This document shows, in pieces, positions 5,807 through 56,561 of a DNA stretch of 64,000 nucleotides. The notes below the pieces were generated by a model that saw only the letters and a program-made list of their open reading frames with translations, had not been told where the DNA came from and ran no database searches. Within the stretch, counting starts at the first letter, position 1. Every line of letters begins with the position of its first letter. This stretch comes from Chloroflexota bacterium (GTDB lineage Bacteria; Chloroflexota; Anaerolineae; UBA1429): contig JAIOAW010000014.1 of the NCBI GenBank assembly GCA_019873625.1, positions 1 through 64,000 on the forward strand. Reading direction: 5' to 3'. A program made the position numbers and the translations under genes.

Positions 5807-7682
5807 ATCCCTCCAGCCAGGGGAACTCAGTTACGCGCAGGTTGGTAGCCCCGTAAGGGATGAGCGAGACCTCTTCCAAGGGTTCTTCGGTATGCACCGG
5901 GCTGAAGGGCAAGGGGCCGGCGGCGTGATGCTCCAATTGCCACGAGGGGAGCCGCCGGGCTAGGGCGCGGGCCGAGAGCGGGGCGCCATCCGGAGAGAAA
6001 GGGCAGTGCCCAAGCGGGCGCCGTGTAAACGTGAGGGCCTTTTCCGGCGCGGCAGGGTCCAAGGCGAGGGCATAGTTCCAGGGCGTGGTGGGGTACACCT
6101 CCCAATCGGCATGGGGCGGTTCGCCCCGCAAAAGGCGCCACTCCTCGCCGATGCGCAGGCTATAGACGAGCGGGCCGCGATGGATGGCGATGCTGTGATG
6201 GTAGCGGTGTTCCACGCGCACGCCCATAGGGAGGCATAAGGTAAGGGTCTCGCCGCCCCGCCAAAGCCGTTCGAAGGTGGCAAAGCGCCCCGCTTGGAGG
6301 GCGACGAGGTCCCCTTCGGGCGCGACGGCCCGTGGCGAGGTGCACCAGCCCGGCACGCGCAGATGCAGCGCGAACCGCACCGGCCGTTCAACGCTCACCG
6401 TGAAACGTAAGGTATCCTCAAAGGGGTATTCCGTATCCAGAGAGATGCGGACGGGCACGCCGCGAACCTCGGCGTGCACTTGGCTGGGGGCATAGGCCAC
6501 GGCGGCCAGGCCGCCATCGGGCGAACGCATCCAGAGGTGAGCGGCGAATTTGGGCCAGCCTTGGTGCATATTTGCCGTGCAGCAGCCAAAATTCGGTTCT
6601 AGGCCAAAGATGTTCGCGTCAGGGCCGTTGCTCGTGTAGATGCGGTCGTCGGCGACGCAGCAGATGACCTGGTTGGCCTGCTGGTCATATTGGTGCGCCC
6701 ACATATCCGGCGAGAAGGTGGCCGGCAGGGCATTGAAGGCGATGCGTTCCAGGCGGTCGCCCAGGGCCGGCTCCCCCAGGATGCTCAAGAGGACCTCGAG
6801 CGAGAAGAGATACTCCACCACGGCGCAGAGTTCCGTTCCTTGGGAGGGGTTCAGCCCGGCATAGTGCTCATCCCCCGTAAAGACGCCGGTGGCCTGGCCG
6901 TGATAGGCATCCAGGCGTTCCATACTGAGGAGGGCGGCCTCGCGATCGGCCGCATCGCCCGATTGGCGGTACCACACGCCGGGCGCTTTGATGCCCATCG
7001 CCCCGTTGACCACGTGCGTCGCAAGGGTGCACTGGTCGCGCGGAGTGCGTTCGCGGTAGGGGAACTCGACCCAGTGCGCGCGCCAATCGTACCCCTGGGC
7101 GTGCACCTTGGCGGCCAAAGGCAAGAGCCAAGGCTCGTGCGTCTTTTCATAGAGCCAGTGTATGCTGAGGACCAAATCGGCCCAGCGATACTGCCCCCAC
7201 ACAAAGAGAGGGCGCTCGTCGAGGAGGGCATCCAGTTTGCGCAGGAAGCGCAGCATAGCCGGGAGAGCGCGAGGCTCATCAGCAACCTCAGTATATTGCC
7301 TCAGGGCTTTTAGGAAGATGAACACCGGCCACGGGTCATAGGGCTGATAGCGCCCTTTGGCCAGGTCTTGAATGGGGCCAAGCCAACCATCGGCCTGTTG
7401 ATGGGCAAGGATATAATCCACCCAACGGCTCACCTTGGCCTGGAGGCGGGCATCTTTCAACAGGTAGGCGAGCGGGACGAGGCCATCTAGCCAGTAGGGG
7501 CCGCGCTCCCAACCCTCGGCGTCCCCGCCGATCCAGGCGCTTCGGGCCACATCGGGCCAGAATTCGTCCAAATGGCCGCTCAGGCCTTCGGCCTGAATGC
7601 GGAGTTGGTTGGCCAGCCAACCCTGCGGGCTAATGCTCCCCAAAGGGAGCGGCTCGAAAGCCAAGGGCAAGAGAGAGGTCAT
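5805..7682 (-). CDS. Glycoside hydrolase family 127-type protein (beta-L-arabinofuranosidase-like, DUF1680)
   Basis: 625 aa with no signal peptide. The alpha/alpha toroid signature SQGTELCAVVEYLFSLE is clear. In the characterised GH127 enzyme HypBA1 a Glu-x-Cys pair and a later Cys-Cys pair bind zinc, and one of those Cys is the nucleophile. Here the equivalents are E284, C286, C367 and C368 (NFGCC), and E272 in GDEHYAG probably corresponds to the acid/base. All catalytic residues are therefore present. Family members remove terminal beta-L-arabinofuranose from plant-type glycans, but related GH146 and uncharacterised members vary in specificity. GGAGAAAGACG precedes the ATG. It lies 10 bases downstream of the M20 hydrolase gene, probably in the same transcript. 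Confidence 0.85.
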   Translation of the reverse strand: MTSLLPLAFEPLPLGSISPQGWLANQLRIQAEGLSGHLDEFWPDVARSAWIGGDAEGWERGPYWLDGLVPLAYLLKDARLQAKVSRWVDYILAHQQADGWLGPIQDLAKGRYQPYDPWPVFIFLKALRQYTEVADEPRALPAMLRFLRKLDALLDERPLFVWGQYRWADLVLSIHWLYEKTHEPWLLPLAAKVHAQGYDWRAHWVEFPYRERTPRDQCTLATHVVNGAMGIKAPGVWYRQSGDAADREAALLSMERLDAYHGQATGVFTGDEHYAGLNPSQGTELCAVVEYLFSLEVLLSILGEPALGDRLERIAFNALPATFSPDMWAHQYDQQANQVICCVADDRIYTSNGPDANIFGLEPNFGCCTANMHQGWPKFAAHLWMRSPDGGLAAVAYAPSQVHAEVRGVPVRISLDTEYPFEDTLRFTVSVERPVRFALHLRVPGWCTSPRAVAPEGDLVALQAGRFATFERLWRGGETLTLCLPMGVRVEHRYHHSIAIHRGPLVYSLRIGEEWRLLRGEPPHADWEVYPTTPWNYALALDPAAPEKALTFTRRPLGHCPFSPDGAPLSARALARRLPSWQLEHHAAGPLPFSPVHTEEPLEEVSLIPYGATNLRVTEFPWLEG

Positions 7683-7692
7683 CGTCTTTCTC

Positions 7693-8874
7693 CTAACTCA
7701 AAAGGTGCACCGCCAGGGCGGCGTACACTTGGGCGGCGGATTCGATATCGCGCAGGCGCACTTGCTCATCCACAGTATGGGCGAAGCGTTCTTCCCCCGG
7801 CCCAAACCCGATGGTGGGGATGCCCGCCACGCCCATCGTATAGACGCCATCGGTAGAAAAATCCCACCGCACCAAGCGGGGGGCAAAGCCCAGTTCCGCT
7901 TCGACGACGCGCGAGGCGGCCACGAGGAGGGGATCGTCCTCCGAGATCATCCAGAAAGGGAAGGATTGCGGGGCCTCCACCGGCAGGCCCGTGTAGGTGG
8001 TGGCGCGGTAGGGGGGCATCTCCACGGTGGCCTTGATCCCCTCCCGCGTGAGGACGCGGCGCAATTCGGCCAGGGCCTTGGCCTCCGTCTCGCCAAGGGT
8101 CAGGCGGCGGTCAATGGTCAGGGTGCACACGTCGGGGATGACGTTGCGGCTCCCGGCCTCGGCATGGATGGACGTTACGGCGACCGTCCCTTTGCCCAGA
8201 AAGGGGTCTTGGTTGAACTGGGGGGCGAGGAGCGCCAACCCCACGATAAAGCGCGAGGCCTCATAGATGGCGTTGACGCCCCGCTCGGGCGCGGAGGCGT
8301 GGGCGGCGCGCCCTTCAATGGTTACTGCGAATTCGATGCGCCCCCTTTGGCCGCGGGCAATCTGCAAATCGGTCGGCTCTCCCAAAATGACCCAATCGGG
8401 CCTCAAGCCCCCCTCTTCGACGATGTGCCGCACGGCCAGGCCCTCGCAAGGCTCCTCTTGCACCACCGCGGCGACATAGAGCGCACCGCGTAAAGCGGCC
8501 CCTCGGCGCGCGAGGAGGCCCCCCGCGTGCACCATCGCGGCCAGGGCGCCCTTCATATCGGCGGCGCCTCGCCCGTAAAGGATGCCGTTCACCACCTCGC
8601 CGCCGAAGGGCGGGTGCTCCCAACGCGCGGGGTTCTCCACGCCGACGGTATCCATATGGGCATCGAAGAGGAGGCGCTTGCCCCCTTCGGGGCCGACGCG
8701 CCCGATGACGTTGCCCATCGCATCGGTATGCACGGCGTCATAGCCCAGGCAGCGCATCTCCTCGGCCACCAAGGCGGCCACGGCGCCCTCTTGGGTAGAG
8801 GGGCTGGGCGTTTGCACCAGGCGCTGGGCGAATTGGATGAGCGCATCCCGTTCATTCGGTGTGAGAGGGGGCAT
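7693..8874 (-). CDS. M20-family metallohydrolase (YgeY/ArgE/DapE type)
   Basis: 393 aa. Di-zinc ligands are visible: H73 and D75 in FDAHMDTVG, D106 in GRGAADMKG, and the E140-E141 pair followed by PCEG. A dimerisation domain with RAAHAS and GSRNVIPD is inserted centrally. The motif set is closest to the YgeY branch, often annotated as selenium-metabolism hydrolase, with ArgE and DapE as alternatives. Family reactions are hydrolysis of N-acyl or dipeptide amide bonds. AAGGAG precedes the ATG by eight bases. It begins 20 bases after the sugar transferase gene and is followed closely by the GH127 gene. The selenium link is known only by genomic association in other bacteria; here selD lies far away at 35 kb. 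Confidence 0.8.
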   Translation of the reverse strand: MPPLTPNERDALIQFAQRLVQTPSPSTQEGAVAALVAEEMRCLGYDAVHTDAMGNVIGRVGPEGGKRLLFDAHMDTVGVENPARWEHPPFGGEVVNGILYGRGAADMKGALAAMVHAGGLLARRGAALRGALYVAAVVQEEPCEGLAVRHIVEEGGLRPDWVILGEPTDLQIARGQRGRIEFAVTIEGRAAHASAPERGVNAIYEASRFIVGLALLAPQFNQDPFLGKGTVAVTSIHAEAGSRNVIPDVCTLTIDRRLTLGETEAKALAELRRVLTREGIKATVEMPPYRATTYTGLPVEAPQSFPFWMISEDDPLLVAASRVVEAELGFAPRLVRWDFSTDGVYTMGVAGIPTIGFGPGEERFAHTVDEQVRLRDIESAAQVYAALAVHLLS

Positions 8875-8894
8875 CGCAACGTCTCCTTTCGGGC

Positions 8895-10340
8895 CTAGTA
8901 CGCCCCTTTGCCGGATAGCACCGTGGGAATCGTCCTGAGGAGGATGACCAGGTCAAGGAGGGGTGACCAGTTCTCGATATAGTACACATCCAGGAGCACC
9001 ATTTCGTCAAAGGTCAAGTCGCTGCGGCCGCTCACCTGCCACAGGCCGGTGATGCCGGGGGCCACTTCCAGCCGGCGCAGGTGCCACGGCTCATACGCCT
9101 CCACCTCGGAGGGGATGGCCGGGCGCGGGCCGATGAGGCTCATTTCCCCTTTGAGGACGTTCCACAACTGGGGGAGTTCGTCGAGGCTCGTGCGGCGCAG
9201 GAATTGGCCTACGCGCGTGCGGCGGGGGTCTTCTTTGATTTTGAAAAGGGGGCCGCTGGCCTCATTGCGTTCGCGCAAGGCGGCTAGGCGCGCTTCGGCA
9301 TCCACATACATCGAGCGGAACTTGTAGCAGGTGAACTCTCGACGCCCGCGGCCCACGCGGGTCTGCTTAAAGATAACCGGCCCCGGCGAATCGAGTTTGA
9401 TGGCGATGGCCAGCGCAAGGAATAGCGGCGAAAGGGCGATGAGGCCCACCGTCGCCCCGAGGATATCCACCAGGCGCTTGAGAACGCGCTGCCAATCTCT
9501 CAGGGCCGGCTCGCCCACGCTGATGAGCGGCACTCCGTCCAAGTGCTCCACGACGACGCGATCCAGGGTAATCTGAAAGAGATCGGGCACGATGCGCACT
9601 TGGCGATGAGCCTTTTGGCACAGGTGCATCAGGTGCAAGATCTTGCGATAAGCCGTCCATGGCAAGGCGATGATGACCTCATCAATCCACCACTTTTCGG
9701 CGAGGATCGCGGGGAGATCGTCCGTCGTGCCCAAGCCCTGGAATTTGCCGATTTCTTTCTGGGCGCGTTCGGGGTCATCATCCACAAACCCCACGATGCG
9801 GTAGCCAAGGTTGGGGCGCGCGACGATGGTGCGCATCACCGAGCGGCCCATCTCGCCCGCGCCCACGATGAGCACGTGGCGGACGCCCTGCCCCTGCCGA
9901 TAGCGATACAGGCGCAACGCATATTCGATGGCCCGGCTAGCCCCCAAAAAAAGGAGGAGTAGGACCCCCGTATAGCCAAAGATGAGCCGCGAATAGTAGG
10001 TGGGCGTGGCCAAAAAGATGATAAAGATCATAATGGCAATGCTGATCAACGCGCTGCGGAAGACGAGATAGAACTCGTTGAACAGCCCCCGGCCGCGCTC
10101 GACGCGGTAGGCGCCCTCCAGCCACAGGGTGGCGAGGAGGATGGCCCCAAGCGCGAGCATACTGGGGATGTACACGCGAAAAGGCACATAATAGCGCGGC
10201 TCCACCTCCAAAAACCACTGGAGGCGGTAGCGCACGATATAGGCCGTGAGGAAGGCCAGGCACGTCAAGGCCAAATCCACTACAGGTTTTAGGTAGCACC
10301 ATGCGGTGCGGTCAGCCTGGGTTCTCGCTTTCGCTGGCAT
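8895..10340 (-). CDS. Polyprenyl-phosphate sugar (glycosyl-1-phosphate) transferase
   Basis: 481 aa. The ATG at 10340 (residues MPAKARTQ) is chosen because the longer frame runs deep into the upstream gene. Residues 15-140 hold about five membrane helices, then comes a Rossmann-like CoA-binding domain ([11 protein letters not shown]). The C-terminal third is the bacterial sugar transferase domain: [33 protein letters not shown] and [12 protein letters not shown]. Enzymes of the WbaP/WcaJ class load the first sugar phosphate on undecaprenyl phosphate to start capsule, exopolysaccharide or O-unit synthesis. The start overlaps the 3' end of the preceding GT4 gene by 29 bases, so the two are coupled. 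The first sugar is not predictable. Confidence 0.93.
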
Positions 10341-49431: not shown

Positions 49432-49460
49432 TTGACACGGCGCCCCCCTTCGGCTAGAAT
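49432..49460 (+). promoter_or_regulatory. alaS operon promoter
   Basis: TTGACA (49432-49437), 17 bp, TAGAAT (49455-49460); near consensus, 34 bases before the ATG. Confidence 0.8.
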
Positions 49461-49493: not shown

Positions 49494-52136
49494 ATGATAA
49501 AGAGTGCCGAAATTCGCAGCCGCTTTCTGCAATTCTTTGCCGATCGAGGGCATACCATCGTCAAGAGTTCTTCCCTCGTGCCGGCCAATGACCCCACGCT
49601 CCTCTTTACCAACGCGGGGATGGTCCAATTCAAAGACGTCTTCCTCGGCTTGGAAAAGCGGCCCTACACGCGTGCCGCCACGGCCCAAAAGGTCCTGCGC
49701 GTGAGCGGCAAGCATAATGACCTCGAATCCGTAGGCCCCTCGCCTCGGCACCACACCTTTTTCGAGATGCTCGGCAATTTCTCCTTTGGCGACTATTTCA
49801 AGGCCGAGGCCATTGCCTATGCGTACGAGTTCCTGACGCAGGATATCGGCCTGGACCCCTCTCGCCTGTATGCCTCCATCTACCAGGAGGATGAAGAGGC
49901 CTTTACCCTCTGGCATAAGCGCATCGGCCTGCCGGCCGATCATATCATCCGCTTGGGCGCCAAAGATAACTTTTGGGAGATGGGCGATACCGGCCCTTGC
50001 GGCCCCTGCTCCGAGATCTTTTACGATCGCGGGCCGCGCTTTTGCTCCTGCGGCCGGCCCGATTGCTCGCCGGCGCACTCGTGCGACCGCTGGCCCGAGT
50101 TGTGGAACCTCGTCTTTATGCAGTATGAGCGCCATGAAGATGGCAGCCTCACCCCCCTGCCGCGCCCCAGCATTGATACGGGCCTGGGCTTTGAGCGCTT
50201 TACGGCGGTGTTGCAGGATGCCGAAAGCAATTACGATACCGACCTCTTTATGCCCATCATCCGGCGCACGCAGGAATTGCTCGGCCACAGCGATGAAGCG
50301 CGCCGCCGCCATTATGTGGCTTACCGCGTCATCGCCGACCACAGCCGCGCCATCACCTTCCTCATTGCCGATGGCGTGATGCCCGGTAACGAGGGGCGCA
50401 ATTACGTCTTGCGGCTCATCTTGCGGCGGGCGGCGCGCTACGGCCGGCGGTTGGGGTTCACCCAACCCTTCCTCGCCGAGACGGCCGACGTCGTCATCGA
50501 GACGATGGGCGGCCACTACCGCGAACTCGTCGAGCGCCGCGATTTCATCCGCCAAGCCATTACGCAGGAGGAAGAGCGCTTCCTGCCCACCCTAGATGTG
50601 GGGCTGGCGCGGCTCGACCAACTCATAGCGCGCCTGCGCGCCGAAGACCGCCGCGAGATTGCCGGCGAAGAGGCCTTCCGCCTGTATGATACATACGGCT
50701 TCCCCTTGGAATTGACGCGCGACGCCGCCCAAGAGGCCGGTTTTACGGTGGATGAAGACGGCTTCCGCGCGGCGATGGCCGCCCAACGCGAACGCGCCCG
50801 TGCCGCACAGCGCTTTGCGGCCGATGCCGAGGCCGCCCTCTACCGCGAGATGGGTTTGCCCTCCACTACCTTCCTGGGGTATGAGCGCCTGGAGGCCGAG
50901 GCACACGTCGTGGCCATCGTGCAGGATGGGCATATGGTGGAATCGGCCAAGGCCGGGGAAAGGGTGGATCTCGTCCTCGACCGGACGCCTTTCTACGCCG
51001 AATCGGGCGGGCAGGTGGGCGATACGGGCCTCATCACCCACGCCGAGGCGCGCCTCGAGGTTACGGATACCGTCAAACCCATCCCAGAGGTCATCGTGCA
51101 CCGCGTGCACGTTTTAGAGGGCACGGTGCGCGTGGGAGATGCCGTCTATGCTGCCGTGGATGTCGAGCGCCGCCTGGATATCGCCCGCAACCACACGGCC
51201 ACGCACCTTTTGCACCGCGCCTTGCGCCAGGTGCTCGGCGAGCACGCCGCCCAGGCCGGGTCGCTCGTGGCGCCCGACCGGCTCCGTTTTGACTTTGCTC
51301 ACCTCTCGGCATTGACGCCCGATGAACTCCGCCGCGTCGCCGAAATCGTCAACGCGGAAATCCGCGCCGATCGCCCTGTGCGCACGCGCATCACCTCGTT
51401 CGATGAGGCCACGCGCGAGGGCGCCATCGCCCTATTCGGCGAAAAATACGGCGACCAAGTGCGCGTGGTGACGGTGGAAGGGTTCACCAGCGAGTTATGC
51501 GGCGGCACGCACCTCGAGCGGACGGGGCAAATTGGCTTTTTCCTCATCGAGAGCGAATCGAGCGTGGGGGCCGGTTTGCGCCGCATCGAGGCGCTCACCG
51601 GCCGCGGCGCGGAGGCCTATGTGCGCGAACTGCGCGAGCGTATGCAGGCCCTCGATGACATCCTTGCGGCTCGCCCCGGCGAGGAATGCCAGCGCGCCCA
51701 GGAACTCGTCTCCCAATGGCGCGAACAGCGCCGCACCATCCAAGACCTTCAGCGCACCCTGAGTGCGCTCACGGCTGAGCAACTCCTGGCCCAGGCCGTC
51801 GAGGTTCAAGGCACCCGCGTGCTCGCGGCGCAGACCTCCGCCGTAGATGCCGACGCGCTCCGCGAACTTTCCGATCGCCTACGCGACCGCTTGGGCAGCG
51901 CCGTGGTGGCCTTGGGCGCCGTGATAGACGACCGGCCTTTGCTCGTGGTGAGCCTGACGCCTGACCTCGTCTCCAAAGGGCTGCACGCCGGCCGCCTGGC
52001 GAATGAGGCGGCGCGTTGCCTGGGCGGCGGGGGCGGCGGGCGCCCCAATATGGCCACGGCGGGCGGCAAAGAGGCGGCACGCCTGCCCGAGGCGCTGAAC
52101 CAGGTGGTAACCTTGGTGCGCCGCACCCTTGCCTAG
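49494..52136 (+). CDS. alaS: Alanyl-tRNA synthetase
   Basis: 880 aa, full length. It charges tRNA-Ala and edits Ser/Gly mischarging. The catalytic domain has FFADRGHTIVKSSSLVPANDPTLLFTNAGM (partly quoted here as family evidence), GKHNDLESVG and NFSFGDYFK. The tRNA-binding region is central. The editing domain zinc site is HTATHLLH plus CGGTHLERTGQIG. The C-Ala domain ends with GGGGGGRPNMA. Some positions vary from the consensus, such as RVSGKHND instead of RAGGKHND. It is the first gene of a five-gene operon. Confidence 0.97.
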   Translation: MIKSAEIRSRFLQFFADRGHTIVKSSSLVPANDPTLLFTNAGMVQFKDVFLGLEKRPYTRAATAQKVLRVSGKHNDLESVGPSPRHHTFFEMLGNFSFGDYFKAEAIAYAYEFLTQDIGLDPSRLYASIYQEDEEAFTLWHKRIGLPADHIIRLGAKDNFWEMGDTGPCGPCSEIFYDRGPRFCSCGRPDCSPAHSCDRWPELWNLVFMQYERHEDGSLTPLPRPSIDTGLGFERFTAVLQDAESNYDTDLFMPIIRRTQELLGHSDEARRRHYVAYRVIADHSRAITFLIADGVMPGNEGRNYVLRLILRRAARYGRRLGFTQPFLAETADVVIETMGGHYRELVERRDFIRQAITQEEERFLPTLDVGLARLDQLIARLRAEDRREIAGEEAFRLYDTYGFPLELTRDAAQEAGFTVDEDGFRAAMAAQRERARAAQRFAADAEAALYREMGLPSTTFLGYERLEAEAHVVAIVQDGHMVESAKAGERVDLVLDRTPFYAESGGQVGDTGLITHAEARLEVTDTVKPIPEVIVHRVHVLEGTVRVGDAVYAAVDVERRLDIARNHTATHLLHRALRQVLGEHAAQAGSLVAPDRLRFDFAHLSALTPDELRRVAEIVNAEIRADRPVRTRITSFDEATREGAIALFGEKYGDQVRVVTVEGFTSELCGGTHLERTGQIGFFLIESESSVGAGLRRIEALTGRGAEAYVRELRERMQALDDILAARPGEECQRAQELVSQWREQRRTIQDLQRTLSALTAEQLLAQAVEVQGTRVLAAQTSAVDADALRELSDRLRDRLGSAVVALGAVIDDRPLLVVSLTPDLVSKGLHAGRLANEAARCLGGGGGGRPNMATAGGKEAARLPEALNQVVTLVRRTLA

Positions 52137-52166: not shown

Positions 52167-53447
52167 ATGGGAATGGTCTTGCTGAGCCGAACGCCGAAAG
52201 TAGGGCCGATGCCGGAGATGCGCCACCACACCCTAATGACATGGGAGCACGGCCACGTGCGAGCGGCGGTGCTCCAGTTGAACGAGGGCACCGCCGAGAT
52301 TATGGGCGTGGCGGCGGCGCCCGTGCACGGCATCGGCGGGACGAACCTGCCCGACGTGGAGCGCTGGTACATCGGCGGCGAGCGCGCCCTCACCCAGGCC
52401 GAGGAGATGACGGCGCATTCCAGTTCGCGCAAGGTCGTGCCCGATGACGTCACAATGTGCATCCCCTCCGAGGTGACGCGAGACCTTCCGGTTACGGTCT
52501 CTCAGCGGCGCCGCAACGCGAAACGCCCCATCTCCCTCGAAGAGATGGCCGCCCTCTTGCGGCGGGGTTACCGCACCGCGCAAGATCGCGCTCAAGACCA
52601 GGGCTATAGCGCCTCGGAGGATATCGTCTGCGGCTGTTTGACGCGCCTCACCGTGGATGGGCAAAGCGTGCTGGACCCCATAGGCCTTTACGGTGAGGCG
52701 GTTGAGGCGCAGTTATGCTTCTTCTTAGCCCCCGTGGTTTGGATTCGCGCCCTGGAGGCCGTCGCCGCACGGTTGGAATTGGCCCTGACTTCCATCGTAC
52801 CGCATCATATGGCCTACGCCGCACCCTTGGGCGAACCCGAGGCGTTGATGGTCCTCTTGGATGAGGATCACTCGCTGATGGCGCTCGTGCGCAACGGTCG
52901 CATCGAGTGGACGGCGCGCGCCCCTGTGGGCGCCGGGAAAATGCTCCAAGGGGCCACGGAGGATTTCAACCTCTCCAGCCCTCAGCATATCGCCCTCCTG
53001 ATGCGCGCCTATCGGGCCGGGCAATTGCGGGAGGATTTCGAAGAGACGCTGGCGCGGGCCTTCTGGCGTGAACTCCGCCATTGGATGACCGCCCTAGCCG
53101 AACAGGCCCAACGGGCTGCGTCGGTTCAGCACTTTCCGCCGCGCCTCTTTTTCTTCGATGTGCCCCGGGCTGTGCCCGAGGCGCGCCTATCGCTGGAAAC
53201 GCCTTTCTGGGAACGCTGTTTGCCCTTTGGCCGCTGCCCAGAGGTGCTCGAAATGGAGACCTCCAACGTGCGCAACGTCTTGGATTGGACCTCGCGGGCC
53301 GGTGGTCCGGCCTTTCTCCTTCTGCGCTCGGCGGCGCATCACATCGCCCGCGTGTACGCGCCGAGCCATGCGCTAGAGCGCCTACTCATCGAGATGATCC
53401 ACTGGCGCCGCGCCGCCGCCAAGCATCCCTCGCGGCGCGGGCGCTAG
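52167..53447 (+). CDS. FtsA/PilM-like actin-fold protein with degenerate ATP site
   Basis: 426 aa. The sequence follows the FtsA/PilM pattern. There is an N-terminal strand pair (WEHGHVRAAVLQ, then GVAAAPVHGIGG) and the SHS2-like insertion (VTMCIPSEVTRDLPVT). A middle section matches the FtsA stretch of the vDGxxxxxPiGlxG type (LTVDGQSVLDPIGLYGEAVEAQL). The phosphate-binding motifs are eroded: the first Asp of DxG is replaced by Glu (WEHG), and the DIGGGT motif reads DEDHSL. It is probably a scaffold and not an ATPase. It lies 30 bases after alaS and 16 before the membrane protein that likely partners it, as PilM does with PilN. The start codon has a weak ribosome site; ATG 52209 or 52218 is possible. 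Confidence 0.6.
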   Translation: MGMVLLSRTPKVGPMPEMRHHTLMTWEHGHVRAAVLQLNEGTAEIMGVAAAPVHGIGGTNLPDVERWYIGGERALTQAEEMTAHSSSRKVVPDDVTMCIPSEVTRDLPVTVSQRRRNAKRPISLEEMAALLRRGYRTAQDRAQDQGYSASEDIVCGCLTRLTVDGQSVLDPIGLYGEAVEAQLCFFLAPVVWIRALEAVAARLELALTSIVPHHMAYAAPLGEPEALMVLLDEDHSLMALVRNGRIEWTARAPVGAGKMLQGATEDFNLSSPQHIALLMRAYRAGQLREDFEETLARAFWRELRHWMTALAEQAQRAASVQHFPPRLFFFDVPRAVPEARLSLETPFWERCLPFGRCPEVLEMETSNVRNVLDWTSRAGGPAFLLLRSAAHHIARVYAPSHALERLLIEMIHWRRAAAKHPSRRGR

Positions 53448-53463
53448 GGCTTAGGAGGTTTGT

Positions 53464-54987
53464 TTGCACGAGACACAGGTCATCCGCCTTTCGCGGAGGG
53501 ATACCCTCGATGCCCTTTGCCAGGTGATCGAAGACTCCCCGCCGAACACGAGCCTCTGGCTCGTGGCCCCTTGGCAGTGGGGCATCACGCGTCGGTTGTT
53601 CAACCTCAAACGCTTGGCCTACGCCGCCGAGCGCGCCCACGTGGCCTTACACCTCGTTTCGGCCCATCGCGAAACGCGCCTGCTCGCACGGGAGGCCGGG
53701 CTAGCCGCCCATTGGATGCTCCCGTTTCGCCTGCGCCGCTACGCCCGCCGCCTTGGCAAGCCGCACGGGCGGCCCAGTTCGCTCGTGGCGCGCCGCGCCA
53801 TCGTCGAGGGCGTGCTGGAAAAGCGCCTGGGCTATCGCCGCCGCTTGAGCCTAGGGGGCGCCCTGGCCGGCCTCTTGACGATCGCCTTGCTAGCAGCCAC
53901 CGGGGCGGCCACCTTCGTGGCCCTCGTGCCCCAGGCCGAGGTGCAGATCCAGCCCGTGGCGCAGCCCGTAAGCGTCTCCTTCCGGGTGCGCGCCAGCCCC
54001 GTCTACCGCGAGGTAGATTACGGCGCCGCCGTCATCCCGGCCCGGCCGGTGCAGGTCATCGTGGAGGAACGTGCCGAAGAGCCGGCCACCGGTGGGTTGG
54101 ATGTGCCCGATGGCTATGCCTCGGGCGAGGTCATCTTTGCCAACCGCACCGATCAGCCCGTGCTCGTGCCCAAGGGGACCATCGTGCGCACGGGTTCGGG
54201 GGTGAACGCCCGCTTCGCCACGGTGAGCGACGTCGAGGTGCCCGGCCAACTGTACGCCCACGCCCGCGTGGGCATCGTCGCGCTTGACCCCGGCCCCGTG
54301 GGCAACGCCCAGCCCCTCACCATCAACATCGTCGAGGGGGATATCGGCTACAAGGTAGATGTGCTGAACACCAGCCCCACCCAAGGGGGCACGGTGCGGC
54401 GCACCCCGGTCGTTACCGCGGAGGATTTCGAGCGCCTATCGGCGAAACTCCTCGAACAACTTACGCAAGATGCTTACGCCCAACTGGTGGGCGAACTCGA
54501 AGAGGGCGAATTCATCCCTGCGCAGAGCCTCGATGTGCGCATTATGTCTCAGAAGTATGACCAAGTGGTAGGCCAGCGGAGCGCCGTGGCCTCGATGACG
54601 ATGAAGGTGGTGGCGCGGGGCACCGCTGTGGATGGCAAGGCCCTCGAACAACTCGCCACGCAGTTCCTCATCCAGCGCCAAAGCGAGGGTGAGGAATTGC
54701 AGATTATCCCCGATAGCCTGGTGATCCGCCGGGGGGAAGAGATCGAAAAGGATCGCGACGAAATCCTGTTCGACGTCCAGGCGCGCGGGATGGTTACGCC
54801 GGTCATCAACATCGCCCGCCTGCAAGCCCACCTGCGCGGTAAGACGGCGCCTGCCGCCGAAGACTGGCTGCGCGAAAACCTCACCCTGGCCAGCCCACCC
54901 GAAGTCTCCATCCAACCCACCTGGTGGGAGCGCCTGCCCTGGCTGCCGGCGCGCCTCAAGGTACACATCCTTGCGGGAGAGACGTAA
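53464..54987 (+). CDS. Single-pass membrane protein with large external domain (baseplate J-like)
   Basis: 507 aa from TTG 53464, eight bases after AGGAGG. Residues 1-120 are a cytoplasmic alpha/beta domain (VIRLSRRDTLDALCQVIEDSPP, LWLVAPW, VALHLVSAHRETRLLAREAGL). One membrane helix lies at about 123-148. The rest is an extracytoplasmic beta-rich region with the pattern seen in baseplate-J-like domains (ASGEVIFANRTDQPVLVPKGTIVRTGSG, AVNAQ-type steps) and a C-terminal KTAPAAEDWL region. Similar proteins are annotated as baseplate J in Chloroflexota although no phage genes are present. With the FtsA-like neighbour it may form an envelope assembly. Function unproven. Confidence 0.65.
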   Translation: MHETQVIRLSRRDTLDALCQVIEDSPPNTSLWLVAPWQWGITRRLFNLKRLAYAAERAHVALHLVSAHRETRLLAREAGLAAHWMLPFRLRRYARRLGKPHGRPSSLVARRAIVEGVLEKRLGYRRRLSLGGALAGLLTIALLAATGAATFVALVPQAEVQIQPVAQPVSVSFRVRASPVYREVDYGAAVIPARPVQVIVEERAEEPATGGLDVPDGYASGEVIFANRTDQPVLVPKGTIVRTGSGVNARFATVSDVEVPGQLYAHARVGIVALDPGPVGNAQPLTINIVEGDIGYKVDVLNTSPTQGGTVRRTPVVTAEDFERLSAKLLEQLTQDAYAQLVGELEEGEFIPAQSLDVRIMSQKYDQVVGQRSAVASMTMKVVARGTAVDGKALEQLATQFLIQRQSEGEELQIIPDSLVIRRGEEIEKDRDEILFDVQARGMVTPVINIARLQAHLRGKTAPAAEDWLRENLTLASPPEVSIQPTWWERLPWLPARLKVHILAGET

Positions 54988-55410
54988 ATGCGCTACCTCG
55001 CCCTCGATGTAGGCGACGAGCGCATCGGCCTGGCCATCAGCGATGCCACCGGCCTCTTGGCGCGGCCGCTCACGGTCATCGCGCGGCGCCCAGGGCCGGG
55101 CAGTTTTCGGCAGATCGCGGCCCTCGTCGCCGAGCACGGCGTTGAGGCCCTCGTCGTGGGGCTGCCGCTTCTCCCCAGCGGCGAAGAGGGCAAACAGGCG
55201 GCCTCGGTGCGCGCTTATGTCAAGGGATTGATAGAATATATCGCGCTCCCCATCTATTGGCAAGATGAGCGCGATACCACCCGCGAGGCCGAGGCGATTA
55301 TGGCCGAGACGAGGCGTTCGGCGCGGCGCCGCCGCCGCTGGCAAGATGCAGTGGCCGCCGCGGTCATCTTGCAGGCCTTTTTGAACGAACGGAGGGAAAA
55401 TCCCCTGTGA
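54988..55410 (+). CDS. ruvX: Putative Holliday junction resolvase RuvX/YqgF
   Basis: 140 aa. RNase H-like fold. The first catalytic Asp is D7 in YLALDVGDERIGLAISD, the Glu lies in VVGLPLL followed by GEEGKQA, and the last Asp in WQDAVAAAVILQ near residue 120. YqgF family members process 16S rRNA 5' ends and were proposed to resolve Holliday junctions. The ATG follows the preceding stop without a gap, and the stop overlaps the mltG start. A position near alaS and mltG is conserved in many bacteria. Confidence 0.93.
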   Translation: MRYLALDVGDERIGLAISDATGLLARPLTVIARRPGPGSFRQIAALVAEHGVEALVVGLPLLPSGEEGKQAASVRAYVKGLIEYIALPIYWQDERDTTREAEAIMAETRRSARRRRRWQDAVAAAVILQAFLNERRENPL

Positions 55411-56561
55411 GGACGGTTCGTCTGCTCCTGCGTTTCATCATCACGGTGCTGGCGCTTTCCGCCGTAACCTTTCTCATCACGGGCGGCTTTTGGTATATGT
55501 GGCAAAACGCCCGCGGCAAAACGCCCCAAATTCGCTATACAATCACCTCTGCCAAGTTGGAGCGCGCCGCGCTCGGCCTGTATTTGCGTTACCGGGGGAG
55601 CGACGTAACCGAACCCGCCAACCCCAACGATAACCGCGAGGTGATTTTCACCATCGAGCCAGGCGACCCTGTCATCACCATCGCCTATCGCCTGCAGAAT
55701 ATGGGCCTGGTGAAAGATGCCGAACTCTTTCGACGGGTGGTGCAATATTGGGGTACTGACGCCACCATCCAGGCCGGCGTGTACATCTTGCGGCCCAATA
55801 TGACGATGGAAGAGATTATGCGCGAACTCCAGCACGGCCGCCTGCCCAGCGTCACGGTAACCATCCCCGAGGGCTGGCGCGCCGAGGAGATCGCCGCCCT
55901 CCTCGAGGAGAAGGGCGTTACCACAGCCGAGGCCTTTATGGAAGCGGTCCATGGGGGGCGCACGGACCTCCCCTTCCTCCAAGACCGCCCGCCCGAAAGC
56001 GGCACCAGCGTGGAGGGGTTTCTCTTCCCCGATACGTACCAGTTCCCCGAAAACACGGCGCCGGAACGCATCGTGGAGATTATGCTGCAAAACTGGGGCC
56101 TGCGCGTGCCAGAGAGCGTCTGGCGAAAGGGCGCGCAGGAGCGGGGTATGACTATCTATGAGGTGGTGACCCTCGCCTCCATCGTCGAGCGCGAGGCCGT
56201 GGTGAGCGCCGAACGCCCCATCATCGCCGGCGTCTATTTGAATCGCCTCAAGCAGGGGATGTATCTCCAGGCCGACCCCACCGTGCAGTATGCCAAGGGG
56301 TATGATCCCAAGACGGGCAAATGGTGGAATACAATGCTCCAGGAGGAAGCAAACACGGTCATCTCGCCCTATAATACCTTCCTCCACGGGGGGTTGCCGC
56401 CGGGGCCTATCTGCAACCCCGGCCTAGGGGCCATTATGGCCGTGCTCCAGCCCGCCGAGCATGACTACCTGTTCTTCTACGCCAAGGGGGATGGTTCGCA
56501 CGTCTTTGCCAAGACGTACGAAGAGCATTTGGAAAATCAAAGGCTCTACGGCGGGCGGTAA
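55407..56561 (+). CDS. mltG: Endolytic murein transglycosylase MltG
   Basis: 384 aa from GTG 55407, overlapping the ruvX stop. MltG cuts nascent glycan strands and so sets their length. One N-terminal membrane helix (residues 8-30), a LysM-like region (PGDPVITIAYRLQNMGLVKD), then the YceG catalytic domain: VTIPEGW, EGFLFPDTY, ASIVERE with catalytic E261, and YNTFLHGGLPPGPICNPG. All signature residues are present. It is the last gene of the alaS operon and is followed by a strong hairpin. Confidence 0.95.
   Translation: MRTVRLLLRFIITVLALSAVTFLITGGFWYMWQNARGKTPQIRYTITSAKLERAALGLYLRYRGSDVTEPANPNDNREVIFTIEPGDPVITIAYRLQNMGLVKDAELFRRVVQYWGTDATIQAGVYILRPNMTMEEIMRELQHGRLPSVTVTIPEGWRAEEIAALLEEKGVTTAEAFMEAVHGGRTDLPFLQDRPPESGTSVEGFLFPDTYQFPENTAPERIVEIMLQNWGLRVPESVWRKGAQERGMTIYEVVTLASIVEREAVVSAERPIIAGVYLNRLKQGMYLQADPTVQYAKGYDPKTGKWWNTMLQEEANTVISPYNTFLHGGLPPGPICNPGLGAIMAVLQPAEHDYLFFYAKGDGSHVFAKTYEEHLENQRLYGGR

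Follow-up and report, generated by a model that had tools for sequence, protein, structure and literature searches.

An FtsA-like pseudo-ATPase and a baseplate-J-like membrane protein as a candidate envelope module beside ruvX-mltG in Chloroflexota

The first 64,000 nucleotides of contig JAIOAW010000014.1 (assembly GCA_019873625.1, a Chloroflexota bacterium of the Anaerolineae; hereafter the window) carry two genes, A and B, between alaS and ruvX-mltG. Judging from sequence comparison and predicted structures, the pair appears to be a separate envelope module that goes with the peptidoglycan genes in Chloroflexota. The two genes are:

52167-53447, plus strand: open reading frame (ORF) A, 426 amino acids (aa), a predicted FtsA-superfamily actin-fold pseudo-ATPase with an eroded ATP site
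53464-54987, plus strand: ORF B, 507 aa, a predicted bitopic membrane protein with an external baseplate-J-like domain

Neither ORF is a product of chance, since both are present in all 15 genomes of the window's family (the window genome counted), the order alaS-A-B-ruvX-mltG is identical in all 14 relatives, and the ratio of nonsynonymous to synonymous substitution rates (dN/dS) in the closest pair is as low as 0.081 for A and 0.073 for B. The first-pass annotation, which had placed two genes here from the letters alone, is borne out in this respect. Its impression that their insertion sets this locus apart is not: other lineages of the phylum also show alaS-A-B-ruvX-mltG, and in many others the order is alaS-B-ruvX-mltG, with no A.

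Association of B with the peptidoglycan genes

The distribution of B across 301 Chloroflexota genomes gives the clearest indication of its role. B was found in 219 of them (E ≤ 1e-3) and A in 82 (E ≤ 1e-20), all of which also have B; A is under-counted here, as the divergent forms of families f41 and f58 match weakly or not at all. With MltG and MraY called at E ≤ 1e-10 and RuvX at E ≤ 1e-5, MltG is present in 258 genomes and an MraY-type match in 270, a threshold that also admits weak matches, perhaps to WecA-like proteins (193 of the 301 pass the curated MraY cut-off). The 31 genomes that lack an MraY match, 20 of them listed by the search and 11 obtained as the complement of the positive list, have neither MltG nor B. 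RuvX is missing from 16 genomes, only two of which (G223 and G297) are among these 31. Because the remaining 29 have RuvX but no B, B follows the peptidoglycan pathway and not its immediate neighbour. A published survey of the phylum reports the loss of division and cell-wall genes in Dehalococcoidales and SAR202 (PMC10608941), which agrees with the existence of MraY-negative genomes; the 31 genomes may belong to these groups.

Gene order points the same way. In three sets of B loci with enough flanking DNA, ruvX follows B in 25/27, 14/14 and 18/19 cases and mltG in 23/27, 13/13 and 18/19, so the synteny survey that the first-pass annotation had proposed finds ruvX-mltG behind B in most loci of every set. 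By comparison, alaS precedes B in 9/27, 8/13 and 15/20 loci, figures to be read with the flank of only 1.5 kb in the first set, which hides an alaS beyond an A gene, and with the hand-chosen third set, 15 of whose 20 loci were picked for having A. As the counts for the following genes exceed those for alaS, ruvX-mltG are the lasting neighbours of B. A scan of named genomes with a single peptide pattern returned 27 loci, all titled Chloroflexi or Anaerolinea(e/les). Where neighbours were scanned, which was done in part of the loci, a Mur ligase replaces alaS upstream of A-B-ruvX at L174 (genome G025, 7489-9096), and BacA, of a family of lipid-carrier phosphatases, stands after mltG in three f28 loci (L169, L170 and L178); both neighbours fit a putative role in the wall. 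Two single loci have further peculiarities: at L174 an extra 254-aa ORF without a Pfam match precedes mltG, and at L185 (G221) no ruvX, mltG, alaS or A lies near B, ruvX and mltG standing together elsewhere in that genome.

MltG, a transglycosylase that cuts nascent glycan strands, resembles B in several respects: the two share an operon, both are predicted single-pass proteins with a domain outside (the mltG product has one hydrophobic segment, near its N terminus), and they are absent together where MraY is absent. They differ in that MltG is an enzyme, whereas B matched no enzyme family convincingly in Pfam and NCBIfam searches.

Several observations weigh against a close tie to MltG or to the wall. 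B is missing from 45 genomes that have both MltG and an MraY match, which means that MltG can do without it. Conversely, six genomes have B but no detected MltG. Three of these (G225, G264 and G285), assembled in 460-1020 contigs, also lack RuvX, and missing contigs may explain the absence; the other three (G141, G172 and G236) do have RuvX and stand as exceptions. Within the MraY-positive genomes the association between B and MltG is weak (p 0.013), and the 31 MraY-negative genomes are interrelated and do not represent as many independent events. Finally, B lies apart from both ruvX and mltG in G221 and G289, and apart from mltG in G140, G195 and G265.

These exceptions suit a more modest explanation, in which B binds the wall or has some general envelope function, with A as its adaptor, and co-transcription with mltG reflects shared housekeeping regulation with no contact between B and MltG. 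The 45 genomes with MltG alone and the displaced B genes of G221 and G289 favour it, as does the presence of alaS and ruvX in the same operon, two genes for which we know of no role in the wall. Against it, B adjoins ruvX-mltG also at loci in which no upstream alaS was detected (L120, L124, L127, L128, L130, L184 and L187). On balance we think this explanation unlikely, if far from negligible. That B is linked to the wall in some way is well supported. Of the idea in the first-pass annotation that the pair forms an envelope complex tied to MltG, the part concerning a wall-linked complex fits the distribution, with B in none of the 31 MraY-negative genomes; the contact with MltG is putative.

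Fold, kinship and lost ATP site of A

The AlphaFold2 model of A has a mean predicted local distance difference test (pLDDT) score of 89, and its best structural neighbours are FtsA proteins (Z 25-30, with 344-354 residues aligned at 3.4-4.8 Å), ahead of PilM structures (Z 18-24) and of MreB and other actins (Z about 15-17). The FtsA-type inserted 1C/SHS2 domain is present in the predicted fold, and SHS2_FTSA matches 8 of the 15 family members at E ≤ 0.1. A profile of 44 A sequences aligned with the family's true FtsA at an hhalign probability of 99.5%, over residues 22-397. By family models the kinship is more distant: window A reaches 20.2 bits (E 2.5e-4) against the FtsA model TIGR01174 of NCBIfam, whose curated cut-off is 175.85 bits, and no match of window A to Pfam PilM_2 was listed up to E 10, a search in which the HMMER filters drop most weak matches. 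Among four A homologues of other lineages that were scanned, three pass the Pfam FtsA cut-off and two that of PilM_2. With regard to the C-terminal amphipathic membrane helix of FtsA, the hydrophobic moments of the A C termini overlap those of true FtsA tails but vary among members. Taken together, the predicted structure makes A an actin-fold protein of the FtsA superfamily, nearer FtsA than PilM.

A shares with FtsA the whole fold including the inserted 1C/SHS2 domain, and many of its homologues in other lineages retain the ATP motifs; it differs in that the window protein has lost all three motifs, falls far under the family cut-off and does not lie beside ftsZ. The idea that A might be a diverged form of this cell's FtsA was rejected, as the true FtsA is encoded at another place in the genome (G000:C10), next to FtsZ and FtsQ in an ftsQ-ftsA-ftsZ division cluster. 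The genome also has its own pilus operon (L168, G000:C1:5000-21000) with PilM, PilN, an ATPase, a prepilin peptidase and a pseudopilin, the PilN-type protein lying in a frame of 1041 aa. Because the genome has this division cluster and this PilM/PilN operon separately, the pair belongs to neither and is a third system. The first-pass annotation had held that complete pilus or division operons with closer partners would speak against its proposal. Both operons are present and exclude A and B as their parts, which leaves room for a complex separate from either.

Among known pairs, A-B can be compared with PilM-PilN of type IV pili, in which likewise a cytosolic actin-fold protein stands beside a single-pass membrane partner. 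This raises the question of whether A and B could be an accessory platform for a pilus, a secretion system or an archaellum, a PilM-PilN-like pair that happens to lie beside alaS. A does match PilM folds, too, two of the four scanned homologues pass the PilM_2 cut-off, and the use of PilN/PilO by Chloroflexota archaella has been proposed (PMC13319060). A prepilin-peptidase-like gene was moreover found downstream of mltG in 6 of the 65 loci searched (L171, L172, L173, L180, L182 and L183), recognised by Pfam Peptidase_A24 in two scanned loci and by tblastn in the other four, and directly following mltG in two; this, too, counts against a function confined to the wall. The six loci form one clade of the alaS tree and have an intact or partial A. 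The peptidase-like gene was not found in the other 59 loci, and PilT had no match in any of the 65. In Actinobacteria a similar order, alaS-ruvX-mltG-aroE-peptidase, occurs that is not known to include A or B; there it would be old housekeeping. B has no PilN match, neither in the window nor among 28 B members at E 0.1 (Pfam), no pilus genes were met among the window neighbours scanned, and B tracks MraY and MltG. The partners themselves differ in build: PilN has, at its N terminus, a short unfolded cytoplasmic tail ahead of its membrane helix, to which PilM binds, whereas the cytoplasmic part of B is predicted to fold into a domain of about 95 residues and the part outside the cell carries a J domain; A is farther from PilM than from FtsA, and the true PilM and PilN are encoded elsewhere in the genome. 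We therefore regard a pilus-type platform as quite improbable. The comparison drawn in the first-pass annotation stands as an analogy and fails as a statement of membership.

The ATP site of A, read from an alignment of its homologues, has been replaced at all three motifs:

52233-52265, plus strand: former phosphate-1 loop, LMTWEHGHVRA in place of the D-x-G-T type; W26 is family-invariant
52845-52880, plus strand: former phosphate-2 loop, LLDEDHS in place of VDIGGGTTD
53145-53180, plus strand: former adenosine loop, FFFDVPRAVPE in place of the GGG loop; D331 is family-invariant

All three are lost in 15/15 members of the window's family, in keeping with the eroded ATP motifs described in the first-pass annotation. 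A with intact motifs is common in other lineages of the phylum: a quick tree of 50 homologues, which left out L131, contains 32 intact, 2 partial and 16 eroded sequences, the last being the 15 family members and L117. Conservation of the motif columns has fallen to the level of the rest of the protein (0.758 vs 0.517 in intact A, 0.452 vs 0.423 in the eroded family). At the same time, 12 positions (H21, W26, P62, W67, Y135, W192, R194, P212, R283, W300, L303 and D331) are invariant in the 15 eroded members and in none of the 32 intact ones, with W26 inside the former phosphate-1 loop and D331 inside the former adenosine loop.

A gene that has lost its motifs, and that was lost entirely in related lineages, might be a functionless leftover in decay. 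dN/dS for eroded A in three pairs is 0.081, 0.087 and 0.151, compared with 0.135, 0.129 and 0.144 for alaS; the values for the second and third pairs are rough, as dS is at least 1.1. Because A shows purifying selection and new invariant residues despite the lost motifs, and is kept in 15/15 family genomes, it appears to be a retained pseudo-ATPase rather than a decaying gene, and the leftover explanation seems very improbable.

Erosion has probably happened more than once. A second group with eroded A, consisting of family f41 and the named locus L131, carries different replacements. The tree of A itself, from which 18 rows, mostly near-duplicates and including PilM_own, were left out, has long branches and does not decide between one and two erosions (approximately unbiased (AU) test, p 0.44). 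The alaS tree of 40 loci, taken as a stand-in for genome relationships, needs two origins and rejects a single clade (AU p 8.5e-5). Absence of A requires four changes on the best alaS tree, at least two of them forced by well-supported branches. A tblastn search with all A types in 22 apparently A-less loci found none in 18 and a divergent A in 4, L191, L193 and L194 being among the loci where one was detected. As far as these trees indicate, then, the ATP motifs have been eroded on two or more occasions, and B has outlasted several losses of A.

Architecture of B and its cytoplasmic domain

In its AlphaFold2 model (pLDDT 92, predicted template modelling score (pTM) 0.56), B is confident within its domains and is laid out as a beta-alpha cytoplasmic domain (about residues 1-97), a linker, a helix (130-154) and further domains (157-507), among whose alpha/beta folds the J barrel is set:

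53464-53754, plus strand: cytoplasmic alpha/beta (Rossmann-like) domain, residues 1-97
53845-53928, plus strand: transmembrane helix, about residues 128-155, with a basic N side
54085-54411, plus strand: external baseplate-J-like domain, about residues 208-316

One hydrophobic segment, beginning at residue 128, was found, and by the positive-inside rule its basic N side places the N terminus in the cytoplasm. Both the single pass and the large external J-like domain claimed in the first-pass annotation thus agree with the model. The N-terminal domain is folded, with mean pLDDT of 85-96 in ten-residue blocks over residues 1-90; it had no convincing match in Pfam or NCBIfam, and its structural matches (Z 5.8-6.9) are at the level of common arrangements. 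The window genome has a single B match. In f28 genomes there are three to five B matches each (best five scored); at the f28 loci L169, L170 and L178 B is about 900 aa long, and at L169 some 400 residues of low-complexity appearance lie between the cytoplasmic domain and the membrane helix.

The likeness to J/gp47/gp6-type wedge proteins (PF04865, PHROG 6) concerns the external domain of about 100 residues and is found in both profile and fold. PHROG 6, "baseplate wedge", matches residues 218-312 (E 1.5e-9), profile comparison also finds solved phage J proteins (E 1.9e-6), and the barrel superposes on 8kea_b (Z 13.9, 99 residues at 3.5 Å); PF04865 matches 21 of 28 aligned B members at E ≤ 0.1, window B itself not among them. 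Only the barrel aligns closely, and B differs from the wedge proteins in being membrane-anchored, in lying in a housekeeping operon and in tracking the peptidoglycan genes. Residues 217-308 (54112-54387) can also be superposed, over 90 residues at 1.7 Å (Z 13.4), on a domain of a galactose oxidase homologue, Streptomyces GlxA. As this domain superposes, the J-like fold is not confined to phages. There are no tail genes among the direct neighbours of A-B, though no search aimed at such genes was made. The least credible explanation of all makes B a part or a remnant of a phage tail or of an extracellular injection system: viral and profile searches do agree on the baseplate likeness, baseplate proteins of phages or injection systems and GlxA make up the 22 listed entries above Z 8, and a survey of phage-tail-derived elements mentions Chloroflexi (PMC4122934), but B has housekeeping neighbours, a membrane anchor and purifying selection, is present in 219/301 genomes, and matched no protein at E 1e-3 in 50,697 phage and 72,556 plasmid records.

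If A docks on the cytoplasmic domain of B, docking would constrain that domain, so it is expected to change more freely where A is absent. Loci were chosen by hand from those fetched: 11 with intact A (one of them, L180, with a partial phosphate-2 motif), 15 with eroded A and 14 without A (L186, whose N terminus had been mis-extracted, was left out), with alaS available for 31 of the 40. The candidate of a simple co-loss was rejected: where A is absent the domain is present but diverged. At an alaS identity of 0.50-0.60, identity of the cytoplasmic domain is 0.461 with intact A, 0.451 with eroded A and 0.235 without A (3, 35 and 7 pairs); in the 0.40-0.50 bin, 28 pairs with intact A give 0.363 and 5 pairs without A give 0.249. 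In the same upper bin the corresponding values (intact, eroded, none) are 0.344, 0.343 and 0.331 for the C-terminal region of B, 0.409, 0.486 and 0.408 for mltG, and 0.421, 0.547 and 0.385 for ruvX, so that among these three a partial fall without A is seen in ruvX only. Matching pairs by J-domain identity gives a similar picture, with 0.449, 0.431 and 0.269 at 0.35-0.45 (8, 16 and 46 pairs) and 0.329 with intact A vs 0.235 without A at 0.25-0.35 (34 and 26 pairs).

Two considerations temper this contrast. The J-matched pairs without A in the 0.35-0.45 bin are more diverged in alaS as well (0.426 vs 0.547 and 0.577), and general divergence therefore accounts for some of the difference; and the pairs are non-independent, drawn from hand-chosen loci and few per bin, which makes the comparison supportive and not a proof. 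Within these bounds, the cytoplasmic domain of B seems more conserved where A is present, even a dead A. The constraint beside dead A is about equal to that beside intact A, which fits a putative scaffold role. Docking of A on B is thereby moderately supported, and we consider it probable.

The operon and a possible role of the pair

The remaining features of the locus are:

49432-49460, plus strand: promoter-like TTGACA-17-TAGAAT (11/12) before alaS, on the basis of a consensus match only
49494-52136, plus strand: alaS, first gene of the operon (tRNA-synt_2c, E 5e-215)
53453-53458, plus strand: Shine-Dalgarno sequence AGGAGG of B, ahead of its TTG start
54988-55410, plus strand: ruvX (Pfam RuvX, 128 bits, E 4e-37)
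55407-56561, plus strand: mltG, a YceG family lytic transglycosylase (Pfam YceG, 296.5 bits, E 3e-88)

The genes lie on the plus strand in the order trigger factor, clpP, clpX, alaS, A, B, ruvX, mltG; other window neighbours scanned encode PfkB, SIS and ThiI proteins. A single transcript from alaS to mltG is likely because A and B are separated by 16 nucleotides (nt), B and ruvX by 0 nt, and the ends of ruvX and mltG share 4 nt. One terminator-like site lies behind clpX; the stretch from alaS to mltG contains a single one on its plus strand, inside A. The scans are near chance, with 3 promoter-like sites vs 1.7 expected and 4 terminator-like sites vs 6.5 expected. Translation of A may start at ATG 52167 or at a downstream candidate such as 52209. 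The rare start codon TTG of B is kept in 14/15 family members behind a strong GGAGG-type site (53453-53466; relatives L031-L044), and such a conserved weak start may tune the amount of B relative to A.

How could the pair work? We put at close to even the odds that A and B work together as a membrane complex within the peptidoglycan machinery. A would dock on the cytoplasmic alpha/beta domain of B, and the external arm of B, the J barrel among alpha/beta domains, would act in the wall zone beside MltG, which is probably encoded on the same message. Ancestrally, A may have bound ATP and served as an FtsA-like adaptor, through which B could have been linked to an ATP-driven cytoplasmic assembly. 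In the window's family, where the ATP site is gone, A would persist as a fixed scaffold; in other lineages A would have been lost, leaving B to work alone. We infer the binding of A to B, the contact with MltG and the scaffold role of A.

A fuller version of this proposal is more tentative and falls clearly below even: an undescribed peptidoglycan module of Chloroflexota, in which a repurposed phage-baseplate domain on a membrane anchor is driven from the cytoplasmic side by a dedicated FtsA paralogue, MltG being the enzyme under the module's control. In the same version this paralogue would have shed its dependence on ATP at least twice and turned dispensable on several occasions. Direct control of MltG by A-B, taken by itself, is possible and slightly more doubtful still. 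In the library searched, nothing was found on the A-B pair, nor on MltG together with RuvX, YqgF or alanyl-tRNA synthetase.

To our knowledge, the control of MltG and of glycan-strand termination is poorly understood, and the wall of Chloroflexota has been little studied. B, present in 219 of 301 genomes, tracking the peptidoglycan genes and equipped with an FtsA-like partner of its own, would be a candidate regulator. The window's family further shows that an FtsA-fold protein can remain under selection after the loss of its ATP site. Since the alaS tree assigns this loss to two or more lineages, any structural role of the fold can be tested independently of ATP, and the phylum provides a ready comparison in which intact, dead and absent A stand beside the same B. 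If the proposal is true, this would be a natural series leading from an ATP-driven adaptor to a static scaffold and finally to loss.

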